This document shows, in pieces, positions 5,318 to 64,000 of a stretch of DNA of 64,000 bases (its first letter is position 1; each line of letters begins with the position of its first letter). The notes under the pieces are model-generated. The model was not told the origin of the DNA, did no database searches, and was given only the letters and a program-made list of their open reading frames with translations. The translations under genes and the position numbers were made by a program. The stretch covers positions 682,001-746,000 of the forward strand of contig NZ_JAIWZC010000001.1 in NCBI RefSeq assembly GCF_020297485.1. Direction: 5' to 3'. The DNA is from Enterocloster clostridioformis (lineage in GTDB: Bacteria > Bacillota > Clostridia > Lachnospirales > Lachnospiraceae).

Positions 5318-6631
5318 ATGAAAAGCAGTATTTACTCCAGCGTGACTGATGCAGTAGCATCTGCAAAGGGAGCCTACGGCAGATATATAAAGCTGACCCT
5401 GAATGAACGGCAGGAAATTCTGGAAGGAGTGAAAAAAGCACTTCGTCCCCTTGCAAATGAACTCGCCGCCATGACAGTTGCGGAAACCGGCATGGGAATT
5501 GTCCAGGATAAGGCACAGAAAATAAAACTTGCCATCGAGAAAACGCCCGGCGTGGAGGACCTGATTACAGAAGTCAATACAGGCGACCATGGAATGACAC
5601 TCTATGAACTTTCCTCTTTTGGTATCGTATGTGCGGTACAGCCATGCACCAATCCCTGCGCGACTCTTATCAGCAACACTATCGGTATGCTGGCTGCGGG
5701 GAATGCAATCATCCATTGCCCACATCCGAGAGCAGTTAAGGTTTCACAATTCCTGACCACGATTATCAGCGAGTCAATCCGCAGTATCAGCGGCATTGAC
5801 AATCTGGTAGTCACCCTTCATGAAAGTCTGATGGGATTTACCACAGAGGTCATGAGCCATCCTGATGTTGACTTGGTTGTCTGCACCGGGGGCAGCGGTT
5901 CCCTGCGCCAGGCCATGACGTCCGGTAAAAAGGTGATTGGAGCCGGACCGGCCAATCCTGTCACGATTGTGGATGCCACAGCGAATCTGGAAAAGGCGGC
6001 CAGAGATATTGTAAGAGGCGCTTCGTTTGACAACAATCTGATGTGTACATCAGAAAAGTGTATGGTTGTGGAGGAGAGCGTATCAGACCGTTTTATATAT
6101 GAACTTCTGAAAAACGGTGTGTACTATATCCGGAATGAGGCGGAAATCCAGAAACTTCTGAATGCCGCAGTCACAGAGGATTTTGTGATTAATAAGAAAC
6201 TGGAAGGCCGGAGCGCCAAGGAGATTCTTGAATATGCCGGCATTCCCGCCAGCAAAGCCATAAAACTGATTGTGGCAGAGACAGGGCGGATGCATCCCTT
6301 TGTTATCACAGAACTTATGATGCCTCTTGTGCCGTTGGTAAAGGCGGCTGATTTTGACGAGGCTCTGGAAATCGCCTTGGAAGTGGAGCAGGGATATAAA
6401 CATACGGCAACCATTCATTCTGAGTCCATCGAGCATCTGAACCGGGCTGCCAGGGAATTACAGACCTCAGTGTTTGTTAAAAACGGTCCTTCCCTTATGG
6501 GAATCGGCTTTGATAAAGAAGGTCATACCAGCTTTACAATCGCAACCACCACAGGAGAGGGAACTACCACGGCAAGGCATTTTGCCCGCAGGAGAAGATG
6601 CACGTTGACAAGTGGATTTTCGATTCGCTGA
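5318..6631 (+). CDS. CoA-acylating aldehyde dehydrogenase homologue, first copy (CutB-like)
   Basis: About 437 residues of the EutE/PduP aldehyde dehydrogenase family, which oxidises acetaldehyde to acetyl-CoA. The presumed catalytic Cys lies in FDNNLMCTSEK, where the family usually has NNxPC; here Met replaces Pro. NAD-site features include VVCTGGSGSLRQAM and GAGPANPV. Start choice is uncertain: AAAGGAGG at 5299-5306 is 11 bases from the ATG at 5318 and only 2 from the ATG at 5309. Unlike the copy at 9739, its N-terminus lacks an obvious encapsulation helix. Choline loci often carry two such genes; this one may have a modified or structural role (inference). Confidence 0.82.
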   Translation: MKSSIYSSVTDAVASAKGAYGRYIKLTLNERQEILEGVKKALRPLANELAAMTVAETGMGIVQDKAQKIKLAIEKTPGVEDLITEVNTGDHGMTLYELSSFGIVCAVQPCTNPCATLISNTIGMLAAGNAIIHCPHPRAVKVSQFLTTIISESIRSISGIDNLVVTLHESLMGFTTEVMSHPDVDLVVCTGGSGSLRQAMTSGKKVIGAGPANPVTIVDATANLEKAARDIVRGASFDNNLMCTSEKCMVVEESVSDRFIYELLKNGVYYIRNEAEIQKLLNAAVTEDFVINKKLEGRSAKEILEYAGIPASKAIKLIVAETGRMHPFVITELMMPLVPLVKAADFDEALEIALEVEQGYKHTATIHSESIEHLNRAARELQTSVFVKNGPSLMGIGFDKEGHTSFTIATTTGEGTTTARHFARRRRCTLTSGFSIR

Positions 6632-33026: not shown

Positions 33027-33614
33027 ATGAATCGAACCAAAAGGCTTTTGGGCAGAAAGGGTATTCTGCTGGCCGTAGCGCTTACGGCCCTTCTGGCCGC
33101 GGGCTGCGGCGGCAAAAAGGAGCCTGTTAAGACTTCTGAGGCAGAGACATCCGCTCCGGCGGAGACAGGGACAAGGGCTGAGTCAGGAACTGCAACCCGG
33201 GAACTGCCAAATCCCATGGCGGAGGTAAAGGATGTCCTGGCCTTTGAGGCCATAGGAGTCCATATGGTGCTGCCAGAGGGGGCTGAGGATACCAGCTTTT
33301 TCATCATCAACCAGGAGGTGGCGGATGCCCGGTTCTCTCTGGACGGTGTGCCATACACCTACAGGGCCTCGGATACGGCAGAGGACTTTGCGGGGATTTT
33401 CGAGCGCTTTAAGGATGAGGCCATTTCCCGGAACTATGATTACGGTGAAACCAGCCTGGAAGTCCTGATTAAAACCACGGACAGCGGCGGCCGTCTGGCC
33501 TCCTGGGAGTGGGGAAGTACCAAGTACACACTTTATACGGCGGCCCAGGTGGACGATGACACCATCACGGATTTGACCATGCACCTGGTGGAGCTGAGCC
33601 AGTATGAAAAGTAG
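33027..33614 (+). CDS. Predicted lipoprotein of unknown function
   Basis: A 195-residue secreted protein. A basic N-terminus and hydrophobic stretch end in the lipobox LLAAGC near residue 27, followed by a Thr/Ser/Ala/Glu-rich linker (30-60). The mature domain (about 65-190) has aromatic beta-rich sequence with no family I recognise. The ribosome site GGAGGA is strong. It lies between the CLC gene and another small unknown gene, which gives no functional clue. Confidence 0.8.
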   Translation: MNRTKRLLGRKGILLAVALTALLAAGCGGKKEPVKTSEAETSAPAETGTRAESGTATRELPNPMAEVKDVLAFEAIGVHMVLPEGAEDTSFFIINQEVADARFSLDGVPYTYRASDTAEDFAGIFERFKDEAISRNYDYGETSLEVLIKTTDSGGRLASWEWGSTKYTLYTAAQVDDDTITDLTMHLVELSQYEK

Positions 33615-33632
33615 TTTAAAAGAGGTTAGCAT

Positions 33633-33926
33633 ATGCTGGAGCTGAAGAATTTCATGCCCATTAATTTCCTGAAAAAAGAGAAATTTACAGGAAGTCACAA
33701 CGGTATGCGTTTTCGTATGGAAAAGCTGGATTTGGAAGGTGAGGACGGACCGCGCCTGGGTGTTACCATTTGGCCTGAGCCATATGGTTATGATGCCACT
33801 CCTGAGGAAGAAAAGGAACAACAAATCCTGTCCTTTGACGCGGACGGCATAGCAAAAGGCGTGGACTGGCTGAACGAGCAGTTTGAAGGCCAGAAAGCCA
33901 GATGGAAGGCTGCGAGCCGCAGTTAA
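33633..33926 (+). CDS. Small conserved-type hypothetical protein
   Basis: A 97-residue protein of unknown function. It has a compact mixed pattern (FTGSHNGMRFRMEK, VTIWPEPYGYDATP, a Glu-rich turn, and DADGIAKGVDWLNEQFE) and no signal peptide. The RBS AAGAGG and the 18-base gap after the lipoprotein gene suggest co-transcription. Codon use resembles the neighbours. Homologues in related Lachnospiraceae are expected, but I cannot name a family. Confidence 0.7.
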   Translation: MLELKNFMPINFLKKEKFTGSHNGMRFRMEKLDLEGEDGPRLGVTIWPEPYGYDATPEEEKEQQILSFDADGIAKGVDWLNEQFEGQKARWKAASRS

Positions 33927-34014
33927 ACGGATTAGGAGGGCAGCGGAAATCTGCCGAAACTTTCCATTATTTTATTGCTTTTTTATAGTTTATTTACAAA
34001 ATCTTAATTTGTCA

Positions 34015-34043
34015 TTGACTTTTCGGAAAGCGGACACTATAAT
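34015..34043 (+). promoter_or_regulatory. Sigma-A promoter for the amt leader
   Basis: TTGACT (34015-34020), 17-base spacer, TATAAT (34038-34043). The start point would fall near 34050, only about 8 bases before a terminator-like hairpin, so transcripts may be attenuated. Confidence 0.85.
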
Positions 34044-34057
34044 AAGCCACATAAAGA

Positions 34058-34088
34058 AAAGCGCCGGTGCTTAGACATCCGGCGCTTT
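34058..34088 (+). terminator. First leader hairpin of amt, terminator-like
   Basis: A perfect 10-bp stem (34058-34067 with 34079-34088) with an 11-base loop, ending TTT then CTCTGTTTTC. It lies between the promoter at 34015-34043 and amt, so it is either an attenuator of amt or the end of a very short transcript. Confidence 0.6.
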
Positions 34089-34120
34089 CTCTGTTTTCTG
34101 CGTAGATAACAGATACACAA

Positions 34121-34168
34121 AGAGGTGTATTGCCGCGGCCAGGTACCGGGCGGGCAATGCACCTCTTT
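34121..34168 (+). promoter_or_regulatory. Second leader hairpin of amt
   Basis: A 14-bp stem (34121-34134 with 34153-34166, one G-U pair) around an 18-base GC-rich loop, ending TTT. With the first hairpin it forms a two-hairpin leader typical of attenuation control of nitrogen genes; no specific class could be assigned. Confidence 0.55.
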
Positions 34169-34230
34169 CTGCGTATTCCCCCATGAATGCGCATCCCCAT
34201 CAAATATAAACCCTCAAGGAGGAATGCATT

Positions 34231-35928
34231 ATGGAATTTTCAGCGGTAAACACAATTTGGGTCCTGTTAGGCGCGGCCCTGGTTTTCTTCATGCAGGCAG
34301 GCTTTGCCATGGTGGAGACAGGTTTTACAAGAGCGAAGAACGCAGGAAACATTATCATGAAGAACCTGATGGATTTTGCCATTGGTACCCCTTTGTTCTG
34401 GCTTACAGGCTTCGGCATCATGTTCGGGGGTGCAGGGGCCTTCATTGGAGGATTTGATCCGCTGGTGCGGGGGGATTATTCCGGAATCCTTCCGGCAGGC
34501 GTTCCCCTTCCCGCCTACCTGATTTTCCAGACTGTGTTCTGTGCCACGGCGGCAACCATTGTGTCGGGAGCCATGGCAGAGCGCACCAAGTTCATTTCCT
34601 ACTGTATCTACAGCGCCGTAATCAGCGCAGTGGTCTATCCCGTGTCGGGACACTGGATTTGGGGCGGCGGATGGCTGGCCCGGATGGGATTTCACGATTT
34701 CGCGGGCTCCACTGCCGTCCATATGTGCGGCGGGGTTGCGGCCCTGATTGGGGCCAAGGTACTGGGACCGCGTATCGGAAAGTACACAGAGGACGGAAAG
34801 CCCAACGCGATTCTGGGTCACAGCCTCACCCTGGGCGCCCTTGGCGTGTTCATCCTGTGGTTCTGCTGGTTTGGTTTTAACGGCTGTTCCACTGTTGCCA
34901 TGGACAGCGACGCGGCTGTATATTCCGCCGGCAATATCTTTGTGACCACCAACCTGGCGGCTGCCACAGCCACCGCGGCCACCATGGTTATCACCTGGCT
35001 CCGCTATGGAAAGCCGGATATCTCCATGACATTGAACGGTTCCCTGGCTGGCCTGGTGGCAATCACGGCCGGCTGCGATATGGTCAGCCCGGCAGGCGCG
35101 TTTTTTATCGGACTCATAGCAGCCTTTGTGGTGGTATTCGGAATTGAATTCATTGACAAGGTGTGTAAGATAGACGATCCGGTAGGCGCCATCGGAGTCC
35201 ACGGCATGTGCGGGGCCGCGGGCACCCTTCTCACCGGCGTCTTTGCGGTGGACGGAGGCCTTGTATACGGAGGCGGTTTCTCCTTCCTGGGAATACAGCT
35301 TTTAGGTGTTGTCTGCGTTATCCTGTGGGTAAGCGTAACCATGATCATCACCTTCAATGTGCTGAAGCATACCATCGGCCTTAGGGCCAGTGAGGAGGAG
35401 GAGACAAAGGGACTGGATGTGACGGAACACAATCTGGCCAGCTCCTATGCGGATTTCATGCCAATGGTATTTATGGGAAAGGCAAAGGAGGGGGCGGCGG
35501 ACGCCGGTGTCTCTGTTGAAAAAGCTGTTCCGGTGGAGCATTATCCATCGGCAAAGCCGGTGTCCGCCAATGTCAAGCTGTCCAAGGTAGTGATGATATT
35601 TAACCAGGCCAGGTTCACCGCTCTTAAGGATGCGCTTACGGACCTGGGCGTCACCGGCATGACCATCACCCAGGTCATGGGCTGCGGTACGCAAAAGGGC
35701 CATGTAAATTACTATCGCGGCATCAAGGTGGAGGAGGCGGCCCTTCTTCCAAAGATGAAGCTGGAAGTGGTGGTGAGCAAGGTACCGGTGGAGGATGTAA
35801 TAGAGACAGCCAGAAAGGCTCTTTACACAGGCAATATCGGAGACGGAAAGATTTTCGTGTACGATGTGGAAAATGTGGTGAAGGTCCGCACCGGAGAGCA
35901 GGGATATGACGCGCTCCAGGGGGAATAA
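34231..35928 (+). CDS. amt: Ammonium transporter fused to a PII signalling domain
   Basis: A 565-residue fusion. Residues about 1-405 are a complete Amt ammonium channel with eleven hydrophobic segments (start NTIWVLLGAALVFFMQAGFAM; GHWIWGGGWL; SHSL-type HSLTLGALG; GVHGMCGAAG). After a linker, residues about 448-565 form a PII (GlnB) domain, with GTQKGHVNYYRG in the T-loop and TGNIGDGKIFVYDVE at the nucleotide site. Where E. coli GlnB has the uridylylated Tyr51 (YRGAEY), this protein has YRGIKV, so that control is absent. The fused PII probably gates the channel in response to ATP/ADP and 2-oxoglutarate. A structured leader precedes it. Confidence 0.93.
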   Translation: MEFSAVNTIWVLLGAALVFFMQAGFAMVETGFTRAKNAGNIIMKNLMDFAIGTPLFWLTGFGIMFGGAGAFIGGFDPLVRGDYSGILPAGVPLPAYLIFQTVFCATAATIVSGAMAERTKFISYCIYSAVISAVVYPVSGHWIWGGGWLARMGFHDFAGSTAVHMCGGVAALIGAKVLGPRIGKYTEDGKPNAILGHSLTLGALGVFILWFCWFGFNGCSTVAMDSDAAVYSAGNIFVTTNLAAATATAATMVITWLRYGKPDISMTLNGSLAGLVAITAGCDMVSPAGAFFIGLIAAFVVVFGIEFIDKVCKIDDPVGAIGVHGMCGAAGTLLTGVFAVDGGLVYGGGFSFLGIQLLGVVCVILWVSVTMIITFNVLKHTIGLRASEEEETKGLDVTEHNLASSYADFMPMVFMGKAKEGAADAGVSVEKAVPVEHYPSAKPVSANVKLSKVVMIFNQARFTALKDALTDLGVTGMTITQVMGCGTQKGHVNYYRGIKVEEAALLPKMKLEVVVSKVPVEDVIETARKALYTGNIGDGKIFVYDVENVVKVRTGEQGYDALQGE

Positions 35929-36217
35929 GTATGGTATTCAATGCTATATTTTTTATGTGCCTTCTGCTATAATATAACAGAATCAGGTACAGACACACGG
36001 GGGACGCAGGGATGAGGCAAATTTCAATCACTTTACCTTTTTCTGCGGTAGGAAGGCGGCCATGGTCCTGTGTGCATATCTGGCTGGATTTGAGAAAATG
36101 ATCCGAATTGTATCCGCCATCGGACCTGTCATAATCGTATTCACCCTGATGTGGGGCTTGCAACCGTAATCCGCGGCTCCGGGAATCTTTCCCACATTCG
36201 CCAGTACGAGACAGTGC
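35929..36217. other. Non-coding stretch, probably decayed sequence
   Basis: No convincing gene. An isolated TATAAT lies near 35970 without a good -35 partner. All frames are short or broken, and the segment runs into the NadR remnant, so it may be the eroded 5' part of that gene. Confidence 0.4.
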
Positions 36218-36397
36218 TGGGCGCTGGGACACTGGGATTACATTCCCTCTGTGTGCCGGGATTACTATGCCCGGCGTGTGCTGGTCCTGGGGAGCGAAAG
36301 CACGGGAAAGAGCACCCTGGTCCGGAATCTGGCGCACCTTGCGTCCGGCGTCCTTATCATTGCCGCTGTCAATCAGACAGAAAAATTACTACTATGA
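36218..36397 (+). pseudogene. Remnant of a NadR-like gene (nicotinamide-nucleotide adenylyltransferase/kinase)
   Basis: In the frame from 36218 to the TGA at 36395-36397 the translation includes WDYIPSVCRDYYARR and then VLVLGSESTGKSTLVRNLA. These match the join between the adenylyltransferase domain and the P-loop kinase domain of NadR-type proteins, where GSESTGKS is the Walker A motif. The frame stops about 27 residues after the P-loop and the N-terminal domain is not recognisable upstream. Only about 60 of some 350 codons remain, so this is a decayed fragment. Confidence 0.7.
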
Positions 36398-36478
36398 TAC
36401 CATAGGAAAAGATGAAAGGAAAGGAAGAAAATGGCGGAACAGGGAAAGGGCAAAAGAAACGGCAGTGAAAAACCGTGC

Positions 36479-36506
36479 TTGAATTTTCTGTCAATTCCTG
36501 TATAAT
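36479..36506 (+). promoter_or_regulatory. Probable promoter for the DUF368 gene
   Basis: TTGAAT (36479-36484), 16-base spacer, TATAAT (36501-36506), 69 bases before the start codon. Confidence 0.6.
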
Positions 36507-36574
36507 TATTCAGAGAAAATCATACTGCCATCCGGAACAGCCGGGCGGCGGCAAAATGACAGGAGGAAGATTAC

Positions 36575-37450
36575 GTGCTTTTAAATGGAATAAGAGGTTT
36601 CTGCATGGCCCTGGCGGACAGCGTTCCGGGGGTATCCGGAGGAACCATTGCCTTTTTACTGGGTTTTTACGATACATTTATTGAATCCCTGAACGACCTG
36701 ATGGGCCGGGACAACGGCAGAAGGAAAACTGCCTTTTTGTTTCTGGTAAAGCTGGGAGTGGGATGGGTCATCGGCTTCTGCATGTCGGTGCTGATTCTGT
36801 CCAGCCTCTTTGAGGCTCACATCTACCGGATCAGCTCCCTTTTTCTTGGACTGACCTTATTCGCCATTCCCATGGTGATCCGTGAGGAAAGGGAAGTGCT
36901 TAAAGGCAGGTACGGAAATACGGTATTCACCCTTATGGGAGTCCTGCTGGTATTTTGCATCACCTATTTTAATCCCTCAGGCGGCGAGGGAATCCGTGTA
37001 TCAGTGGAGCATCTGTCACTGGGACTGGTGGTGTACGTGTTCTTCACTGCCATGATCGCCATTACCGCCATGGTGCTTCCGGGCATCTCAGGTTCCACGC
37101 TCCTTCTCATATTCGGGCTCTATGTGCCCATCATAGGTGCTGTGAAGGAATTCCTGCACATGAATATGGACTATTTCCCCATCCTGATGGTATTTGGTCT
37201 GGGCATCGTCACAGGTATTGTGGGAATTATTAAAATCATCAAGATGTGCCTGGAGCGGTTCCGCTCCCAGACCATTTACACCATCATCGGCCTGATGACA
37301 GGCTCCCTCTATGCCATCACCATGGGGCCCACCACCCTGGATGTGCCCAAGGCGCCCATGAGTCCCTCCACCTTCAGTATCCTGTTTTTCATACTGGGCG
37401 GCGTGATACTGGCAGGGCTGGAGCTTTTAAAGGCACGTCTGGACAAGTAG
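36575..37450 (+). CDS. DUF368 family membrane protein, probable polyprenyl-phosphate translocase
   Basis: A 291-residue integral membrane protein beginning at GTG with AGGAGGA seven bases upstream. The N-terminal ALADSVPGVSGGTIAFLLGFY motif and the repeated MVLPGISGSTLLLIFGLY in the second half are the inverted-repeat signatures of DUF368. About eight hydrophobic segments are visible. Members of this family (PopT) were shown to recycle undecaprenyl phosphate across the membrane for wall synthesis, so that role is inferred here. It is followed by a regulator gene after 23 bases. Confidence 0.88.
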   Translation: MLLNGIRGFCMALADSVPGVSGGTIAFLLGFYDTFIESLNDLMGRDNGRRKTAFLFLVKLGVGWVIGFCMSVLILSSLFEAHIYRISSLFLGLTLFAIPMVIREEREVLKGRYGNTVFTLMGVLLVFCITYFNPSGGEGIRVSVEHLSLGLVVYVFFTAMIAITAMVLPGISGSTLLLIFGLYVPIIGAVKEFLHMNMDYFPILMVFGLGIVTGIVGIIKIIKMCLERFRSQTIYTIIGLMTGSLYAITMGPTTLDVPKAPMSPSTFSILFFILGGVILAGLELLKARLDK

Positions 37451-61828: not shown

Positions 61829-62032
61829 GCTTGATGAGGAGAAAAACACGGTCACATTCTACGATGAATCAGAAAAATCGTATCCTTACCGTTAGAGGAC
61901 CTGGACAGAAGCCGCATTCAGGATGTCATTTACACTGATTTCGTGGCCTTTAAGCCGAACCAGACCGTTATCCGGGATATTGAAAAGGCGGGGACTGATT
62001 TCGGGATTAAATTGCGCTTTACGACATTTTAG
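61812..62032 (+). pseudogene. Decayed gene fragment of unknown function
   Basis: One frame encodes LAYKLDEEKNTVTFYDESEK to a TAG near 61893. After a shift of one base the text continues sensibly as LEDLDRSRIQDVIYTDFVAF to KLRFTTF and stops at 62030-62032. No start codon or ribosome site precedes it. It looks like the 3' part of a lost gene; no family was recognised. Confidence 0.45.
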
Positions 62033-62081
62033 GTTTTTGGACATTTTAAGAACAATTTACAAACATTCTACACAATCCCTC

Positions 62082-62112
62082 TTGACTTGGAGTTGACTTT
62101 AAGTTGTAGACT
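62082..62112 (+). promoter_or_regulatory. MerR-type promoter with operator in an over-long spacer, upstream of the DUF362 gene
   Basis: TTGACT (62082-62087), a 19-base spacer, and TAGACT (62107-62112). The spacer holds an imperfect dyad, CTTGGAGT-TG-ACTTTAAG (62086-62103). This layout is diagnostic of MerR/NmlR-family control. The merR gene at 63337-63711 is the probable regulator. Confidence 0.8.
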
Positions 62113-62266
62113 CTCATTATATCCAGGATTTATCACCCCAACAGGCCATCTGTCAGGGGTTTTACCTGTCCTGGACATTCTGCACCACAGTCTGTAAGAA
62201 CTGCTGAAATGCAGACTGCCGATATGCGGACTACAGCCTGACAACATTTCAAGGAGGACAATCATT

Positions 62267-63145
62267 ATGTCTATTGTTTACATGACAAAGGAAATCACAC
62301 CGGAAAGCCTGGTCCGGATGTACCATGCATTGGGTATCTCGTTACCCGGCAGCGTTGCGGTGAAGATCTCCACAGGTGAACCGGGTGGCCGTAACTTTCT
62401 GCAACCAGAACTTATCAGGAACCTTGTACAGGAACTTAAGGGTACCATTGTTGAGTGCAACACTGCCTATGAGGGAAGAAGGAACACTTCCAAGGCTCAC
62501 TGGGAAACCATGCGGGACCATGGGTTCACAGCCATTGCACCCTGTGATATCCTGGACGAGGAGGACCACATGCCCCTTCCGGTAACAGGCGGTTTTCATC
62601 TGACGGAAAACTATGTGGGCTCCCATCTTCAAAGCTATGATTCCATGCTCATGCTTTCTCATTTCAAGGGCCATGCCATGGGAGGCTTTGGCGGAGCCTT
62701 AAAGAACATGTCCATTGGCCTGGCATCTTCTTACGGCAAGATATGGATTCATTCTTCCGGCACCAGCACCAGGTTTGAGGATGTATTCACAGCTGACCAC
62801 GATTCATTCCTGGAATCCATGGCGGACGCTGACCGCTCCGTCATGGACTATATGGGCCGGGAAAATATAGTGTACATCAATGTGGCCAACCGTTTATCCG
62901 TGGACTGCGACTGCGACGCCCATCCACATGATCCGGAAATGGGGGACATCGGCATTTTCGCCTCCACTGACCCTGTGGCCCTGGACCAGGCGTGCGTGGA
63001 TGCGGTATACGCTTCTGAGGATGGCGGAAAGGCTGCTCTGATAGAGCGAATAGAATCCCGGAACGGGATACACACCGTGGAGGCCGCCCATTCTCTTGGC
63101 CTTGGCAGCCGCGGATATGAACTCAGATGTATCGATTCATACTAG
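62267..63145 (+). CDS. DUF362 domain-containing protein
   Basis: A 292-residue protein of the DUF362 family (function not established; some members sit near iron-sulfur or cofactor genes). Conserved segments are VAVKISTGEPGGRNFLQPEL, SHFKGHAMGGFGGALKNMSIG and STDPVALDQACVDAVY. The ferredoxin-like Cys motifs found in some members are absent; the Cys/Asp cluster VDCDCDAHPHDPEMGDIG is the only metal-like spot. The ribosome site AAGGAGG is strong. It is preceded by a MerR-type promoter, and its stop codon lies in the CTAG flank of a fold-back element. Confidence 0.85.
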   Translation: MSIVYMTKEITPESLVRMYHALGISLPGSVAVKISTGEPGGRNFLQPELIRNLVQELKGTIVECNTAYEGRRNTSKAHWETMRDHGFTAIAPCDILDEEDHMPLPVTGGFHLTENYVGSHLQSYDSMLMLSHFKGHAMGGFGGALKNMSIGLASSYGKIWIHSSGTSTRFEDVFTADHDSFLESMADADRSVMDYMGRENIVYINVANRLSVDCDCDAHPHDPEMGDIGIFASTDPVALDQACVDAVYASEDGGKAALIERIESRNGIHTVEAAHSLGLGSRGYELRCIDSY

Positions 63146-63308
63146 TATGACCCACGTTAAATGCCTTGCTGGTTCGGTGAGGATGATTTTTTGAGAGTGC
63201 AGGTGCAAAAACGGAGGCGTAGTGGGTTCTACGCTGAGTATTTTGCACCTGTGCTATCGGAAAATCAGACCAGCGAAACAGTAAGGTGTTTAGTGTGGGT
63301 TATACTAG
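63142..63308. mobile_element. Fold-back element, MITE-like or structured RNA element
   Basis: Bases 63146-63304 form one long imperfect palindrome (TATGACCCAC at the left, GTGGGTTATA at the right) centred on a 6-bp hairpin at 63217-63234 with a TGGGTT loop. CTAG occurs on both sides (63142-63145 and 63305-63308) and could be a target-site duplication. Most mismatches between the arms are G-T, so the RNA would pair almost throughout, about 70 bp. No transposase is encoded. No second copy was seen in the window. Confidence 0.75.
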
Positions 63309-63336
63309 ATTACAGTGTAAAGGAGCTGATGAAGGT

Positions 63337-63711
63337 TTGACCATAGCAGAGGTAAGCAGACAATATGACATATCGGCCGATACACTGCGCTACTATGAGC
63401 GAATCGGCCTTCTTCCCCATGTGGGCCGCACGTCCGGCGGCATCCGCAATTATTCCGAGGATGACTGCCATTGGGTGGAGTATATCAAGTGCATGCGCAG
63501 TGCAGGGGTTTCTGTGGAGACATTGCTGGAATATGTGACATTGTTCCGTCAGGGAACCTCCACCATCCAGGCCAGAAAAAACCTTCTTCTGGAACAGCGG
63601 GAGCGGATTGTGGCCCGAATCAATGAGCTGAACCAGGTCCTGGCAAGGCTGGACTGGAAACTGGACGGCTACGAGGAACGGATGCTTAGATGCGAGGAAC
63701 ATTTGAAATAG
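63337..63711 (+). CDS. MerR family transcriptional regulator
   Basis: A 124-residue MerR-type activator. The TTG start at 63337 is chosen because the family begins MTIAEVSRQYDISADTLRYYERIGLLP; AAAGGAG lies 11 bases upstream, a loose spacing. The winged helix (1-70) is followed by a coiled-coil dimer helix (about 78-118). No C-terminal effector domain is present. A Cys near the end (MLRCEEHLK) could be redox- or electrophile-sensitive, as in NmlR-type members. It probably controls the MerR-type promoter of the DUF362 gene. Confidence 0.88.
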   Translation: MTIAEVSRQYDISADTLRYYERIGLLPHVGRTSGGIRNYSEDDCHWVEYIKCMRSAGVSVETLLEYVTLFRQGTSTIQARKNLLLEQRERIVARINELNQVLARLDWKLDGYEERMLRCEEHLK

Positions 63712-64000
63712 CTTTGCTCCGACATGGAAAACGCCTTATATTATAAGGGTGCAACAGATTGTTGCGTGACACCGGAACCAAAGGCAGGTAATATGAAACT
63801 TATTCTGCATTTTTTAGAACAGGATTTGTCAAGAGCTTGTTGTGTAGCAATGCGTTAGCACTCTTGATAAGGCATGGGATAAAAAATATTATCCGTAAAG
63901 CAGAAAAGAAATGACTAAATAAAATGCCGTACACATTTCAATCAGTGAAAAACATGGAAAAATTAACAGATAGCAGTAAACTATGTAATTTTATTGAAAG
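63712..64000 (+). other. Terminal non-coding region with a possible small ORF
   Basis: Nothing firm is seen. ATG at 63793 opens a 21-codon frame (MKLILHFLEQDLSRACCVAMR) with GGCAGG four bases upstream. CAAGAG (63830-63835) and CTCTTG (63861-63866) could pair across its end. This looks like a leader peptide or small ORF ahead of a gene beyond the window, but the evidence is thin. Confidence 0.3.

Follow-up and report, generated by a model that had tools for sequence, protein, structure and literature searches.

The 167-bp element at positions 63142 to 63308 of the window, the 64,000-nucleotide stretch of Enterocloster clostridioformis DNA analysed here, is probably a MITE with IS630/Tc1-type ends and an inner hairpin that is under selection on one strand only, most probably as RNA. 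In the proposed arrangement, a trans-acting IS630/Tc1-type transposase would use the outer ~23 bp at each end, at the DNA level, as terminal repeats and insert the element into CTAG-like sites at TA. The selected hairpin, with its conserved internal loops, would be formed by the inner ~113 nt. Mobility, the CTAG target, the IS630-like ends, covariation, the one-strand excess of G-U pairs and random orientation relative to genes all find support in the comparisons described below; we infer that the hairpin strand serves the element's own spread.

As the first-pass annotation had stated, a near-palindrome of 159 bp (63146-63304), paired almost throughout, lies between two CTAG tetramers and touches the stop codon of a DUF362 gene. 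The left CTAG provides the TAG stop of this open reading frame (62267-63145). The + strand of 63130-63320 folds into a single hairpin of -103.6 kcal/mol (z -14.5), and none of 200 shuffled sequences was as low (mean -47.45, sd 3.87). The - strand of the element region folds at -66.1 (z -10.6), and the energy gap arises largely because G-U pairs of the + strand become A-C on the - strand. There are 11 G-U pairs in the drawn + strand fold of the window copy, including those noted beforehand at positions 4, 11 and 12 inward from the CTAGs. The mid-stem internal loop (Table 1) possibly contains tandem G-A pairs, the pairing type being judged by eye. Identity with a named RNA motif, for example the K-turn, was weighed and set aside. 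The ORF list of the region held no ORF confined to the element, and Rfam models gave two weak matches in 62000-64000, both below the gathering score and neither on the element.

Table 1. Features of the element (window positions).
Feature	Position	Strand	Basis
Whole element with both CTAG target copies	63142..63308	+ (best-folding strand)	sequence, folding, copies, empty site
Left CTAG, target; duplicated part probably TA	63142..63145	no strand	
Right CTAG	63305..63308	no strand	
Left terminal inverted repeat, IS630-like (GTAYRNC...TAAAT), apparent DNA-level constraint	63145..63168	+	
Right terminal inverted repeat	63282..63305	-	
Inner hairpin, apparent one-strand (G-U) constraint	63169..63281	+	covariation, G-U excess, sister pairs
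Mid-stem internal loop, 5' side AGGAT, opposite TCAGAC of 63265-63270	63180..63184	+	drawn fold
Mid-stem internal loop, 3' side TCAGAC	63265..63270	+	drawn fold
G of a G-A mismatch within GAGAG/CTATC, partner A63256; G-C in some copies	63195	+	
U-G and G-U pairs with 63253 and 63252; majority pair in 41/49 and 40/49	63198..63199	+	
Apical motif CGGAG - stem-loop - TGAG, common to Selenomonas and Geobacter copies	63212..63238	+	

Judging from its copies and one empty site, the element is mobile. Other copies, whose existence had been named beforehand as a test, were found: a second one in the same genome is 98% identical, and a third (L175, G000 C1:4461065-4461230) is diverged and has other ends. 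At E <= 0.001 the element was matched in 4 of 17 genomes of the genus and in 21 of 397 of the family, the own genome included in both. Two candidates per genome were scored in the family search; some of its matches are short pieces only, and at least one, L035, has no hairpin of this kind. A plasmid search gave no match to the element, and a phage search gave one 27-base match in one record. At locus L011 of genome G004 the order is CTAG-element-CTAG, and at the same place the own genome has continuous flanks around a single tetramer. The tetramer of this empty site is CCAG. It was the only clean one among the sites compared in the own genome, G004 and G011. The site of the second own copy in G004 lacks the element but has altered flanks and so does not count as clean; the window's own site lacks it in G011, with altered sequence. 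Among 94 near-full-length copies, which include some loci twice from two collections (e.g. L016 and L100), the flanking tetramer was CTAG at both ends in 56 and another identical tetramer at both ends in 5. Target duplications of 2 bp and 4 bp are indistinguishable on these data.

The first-pass annotation had also offered a structured RNA between the DUF362 and merR genes. The element is not tied to that pair: elsewhere, copies adjoin other genes and occur in either orientation. In G004, a close relative, this CTAG is followed within the same flanks, on two contigs, by ends that belong to another MITE, family B.

Five copies in MAG RUG13451 (L068, L079 on the - strand at 6203, L124, L159 and L114) have a variable left and a fixed right breakpoint. 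Of the 5' end, 26, 32, 38 or 51 nt are kept (none in L114) and then joined to the apical point ACGTAGGCG. Hairpin cleavage, a template jump or an assembly artefact may have produced these breakpoints.

Movement is best explained by IS630-type transposition at CTAG. Passages of PMC2170065 describe IS630-type elements as duplicating TA and moving by cut and paste of double-stranded DNA, and its reference list includes a paper on the preference for TA in CTAG. The own genome contains an IS with ends CTAGTACAGC, with at least 23 end pairs 1375 bp apart among the places listed (part of 144). The two ORFs of this IS gave DDE_3 and HTH_32 matches above the cut-off; as each covers just a portion of a transposase, their match to the IS630 NCBIfam model was below the model cut-off. 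At L207:1530-2839 the IS630 transposase is split over two ORFs of 184 and 199 aa, for which a programmed frameshift or decay is possible. A matrix was built from 76 ends of 38 elements, with 126,152 window positions tested as background. On it the left end of the IS scored 13.8 bits (no position as high) and the right end 10.1 bits (three as high); the element ends themselves had a mean of 21.0 bits and a lowest value of -6.6. From these scores the element ends appear to resemble the IS630-family ends of the same genome, being similar and not identical. Counting against an IS630 mover, the IS ends read GTACAGC and those of the window copy GTATRAC. Together with the copies and the empty site, the IS630-like ends support the MITE, though not its copying as a folded unit, that the earlier annotation suggested.

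MITE family B, in the same genome, has the same CTAG target and GTATAAC ends, which scored 14.0 and 12.2 bits on the element-end matrix. At least 19 of its end pairs lie 144 bp apart among the places listed, and five sequences were examined. Unlike the element, it folds more weakly, shows no strand preference (-41.8/-44.1) and lacks the apical motif. IS630 and 144-bp MITE B copies abut in genome G000, e.g. at C1:2170130-2170279, with one CTAG in common, as if one had been inserted at the other's end.

To find an autonomous element with the hairpin inside it, collected loci and the window were scanned for matching ends at a distance of 500-4500 bp; two pairs turned up, and neither was accepted. 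At L079 the candidate consisted of two inverted copies around ORFs that by eye resemble host genes. In the window, a pair of CCAGTATGAAAA-like ends lies 3.8 kb apart (33598-37397, 10/12 matching) and may be due to chance. No recognisable transposase ORF was seen by eye in the ORF lists of the half-elements L114, L051 and L060.

To judge from the variation among its copies, the part of the hairpin that lies inward of the outer ~23 bp is under one-strand constraint. Alignment A1, of 21 sequences, was built without structure, and the structure was then predicted from it. Paired cells made up 93.4%, and covariation, which had likewise been named beforehand as a test, was present, with two-sided changes in 45 of 64 pairs (240 two-sided cells). 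Shuffles gave a mean of 78.7 such cells and slid structures a maximum of 54, controls that favour the structure somewhat because it was derived from the same alignment. Base pairs were also counted in 49 representatives of clusters below 90% identity (5 of 54 clusters were dropped for length or anomaly). Their paired columns hold 2540 Watson-Crick, 335 G-U, 49 A-C and 147 other cells, so the arm mismatches are mainly G-U compatible, as first described. This description fits the inner part strongly and the outer part weakly. G-U and A-C cells number 36 and 21 in the outer columns 2-23, against 57 and 7 in columns 25-35, 179 and 18 in columns 40-70, and 63 and 3 at the tip (299 and 28 in the inner part overall). 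With four G-U-majority pairs removed, the overall counts are 178 G-U and 49 A-C; a Watson-Crick-only arm alignment of 24 clusters, loops included, gave a milder ratio (165 to 58). Part of the A-C cells are real pair breaks, a point against the proposed explanation.

A comparison of 32 sister pairs gave a similar division. Inner single changes were 61 between Watson-Crick and G-U, 17 between Watson-Crick and A-C and 37 other; the outer ones were 12, 9 and 24. Standard pairs were kept in 56 of 62 two-sided changes. The two-sided changes and the G-U excess together support the selection on the hairpin strand that had been suggested. A plain DNA palindrome MITE would need no RNA function: the transposase, with template switching or repair, would keep the arms alike, and G-U pairs would come from strand-biased mutation. 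The outer part fits this account in both the column counts and the sister pairs, and a passage of PMC8794818 indicates that template switching can maintain hairpins. For the element as a whole it is distinctly unlikely, given the inner excess of 299 G-U over 28 A-C. Changes in sister pairs are balanced (C/T 36, A/G 37), unlike cytosine deamination, as are those in unpaired columns (A/G 30, C/T 26). Moreover, repair between arms would erase the conserved mismatches and G-U pairs.

All 98 copies found by the model fold better on the + strand, the model having been built from copies oriented by folding energy. This orientation agrees with the tip sequence where the tip is on one strand only (21/27). 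Orienting by tip sequence alone gave the same + preference in most loci among those listed, with exceptions that include the half-element L060 and L061 with its flanks.

The selected strand is most likely RNA rather than single-stranded DNA, although fold asymmetry by itself cannot tell the two apart. Under DNA folding parameters, four of five test sequences were clearly better on the + strand (+/-: Geobacter -52.9/-37.9, Selenomonas -48.4/-37.9, L175 -56.1/-38.5, ERIC -23.2/-17.1), the fifth being L165 (-56.0/-55.1). Such values would suit selection on single-stranded DNA, where the folded + strand would act during replication or transfer as an intermediate or recognition site, in the manner of IS200/IS605 or integron sites. 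We consider this unlikely. In the middle stem, G-U (179) is far above G-A plus A-G (14), T-T (15) and G-G (3), and DNA stability would not favour G-U that strongly over these mismatches. GC skew, an indirect measure, revealed no replication-strand bias (24 and 35 of 59 loci, p 0.19), which does not fit the IS200/IS605 type. In addition, the ends and target look like those of IS630, described as a double-stranded cut-and-paste type in part of PMC2170065.

The gene context of 91 distinct loci was assigned by a simple ORF rule, with no gene caller. Between co-directional ORFs, 23 copies were sense and 27 antisense; 14 loci were convergent, 7 divergent, 19 without an ORF on one side and 1 inside an ORF. 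Orientation to genes is thus random, and the constraint would accordingly seem to be a property of the element itself. These numbers stand against an RNA acting in place, kept by the host as a terminator or mRNA-processing site of neighbouring genes. So does a comparison of 22 sense with 25 antisense copies, which showed no difference in energy, strand difference, pairing or G-U count (p 0.36 to 0.81). Copies do often adjoin genes, some at stop codons, three terminator-like sites were found in 351 bases scanned around the element (0.2 expected), and part of PMC2229807 reports that the effect of ERIC on mRNA depends on orientation. Nevertheless, the T-run near the tip is missing in F-type relatives, for which reason an intrinsic terminator at the tip was rejected, and a role in place is very unlikely. 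For the preferred reading, a one-strand RNA serving the element, a scan of the element found no promoter-like site, leaving no evident source of a + transcript in antisense places; this counts against it.

The tip pattern was found in at least 119 stretches, with Lachnospiraceae, Blautia, Hungatella, Selenomonas, Mitsuokella and Geobacter among the matches listed, and also in a gammaproteobacterial MAG (L144). In the drawn Selenomonas and Geobacter copies the ends are different ones, and the tip and the preference for + are shared. With filters that lose weak matches, model R1 gave hits in 8 of 299 phylum genomes, the own one included. A stricter tip pattern, which misses the own copies, occurred in 5 of 398 phylum genomes at 10 places; the reversed pattern, used as a control, occurred in none of them. 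The internal loops are retained in nine relatives from other Firmicutes families. Of these, six have a slightly better fold on + and three on -, with mostly small margins that amount to no clear preference and count against the proposed explanation. Shorter relatives of 111-137 nt, L165-L174, from other Firmicutes families, have GC-rich stems, share both internal loops and favour neither strand clearly. It is conceivable, if somewhat unlikely, that an inner RNA module sits on different ends in Lachnospiraceae, Selenomonas/Mitsuokella and Geobacter. The lasting unit would then be the RNA and not the ends, and the spread of a DNA-transposase element would depend on a folded RNA.

The nearest analogue of the element is ERIC (IRU, RU-1) of enterobacteria, described in part of PMC2229807 as a mobile hairpin of ~127 bp with TA at its termini and a target duplication. 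In one E. coli ERIC copy one strand also folds better (-52.3/-38.2) and the tip is GGAG-stem-TGAC; the strand-asymmetric hairpin and the GA-rich loop near the tip of that copy are a resemblance, not homology. Length and arms differ, and ERIC was rejected as a sequence homologue, model R1 giving the E. coli copy 4.9 bits (E 0.41 in 344 bases). We know of no established mover of ERIC. The third own copy, L175, has ends GAGTGTGTTTGAAAA and a GGAG/TGAC tip like that of ERIC; L175-like single ends occur, with two mismatches, at seven other genome places. By description, the element is also likened to three further groups: RUP of pneumococcus, a MITE inserted at TA, and Correia/NEMIS of Neisseria, a MITE with a hairpin in its transcript that RNase III processes (both in part of PMC2229807), and the dispersed Geobacter multicopy palindromes and Chunjie MITE (passages of PMC2996986 and PMC10969869). 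A literature search, with subscription journals largely outside its coverage, found no title naming the element. For RUP, an IS630-type transposase has been proposed as the mover. To our knowledge, no one-strand constraint has been described for Correia/NEMIS.

How the hairpin might favour spread can be outlined tentatively, in a mechanism that we regard as possible but doubtful: the fold of a + transcript is recognised by a host RNA-binding factor, raising the spread of that copy. A copy transcribed by chance on the + strand would yield a folding transcript, whose loops the factor would recognise. Recognition would increase the chance of new copies arising from that transcribed copy, and copies in antisense positions would be mere descendants.

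It has long been asked what moves ERIC-like palindromes and what makes them fold so strongly. In this one element two layers can be told apart: ends that at the DNA level resemble those of an IS630 in the same cell, and an inner hairpin, its role inferred from sequence, that is constrained on one strand regardless of which way the neighbouring genes run. A covariance model is now at hand for a repeat without an Rfam match, and with separable layers it becomes testable whether RNA contributes to the spread of a DNA transposon.
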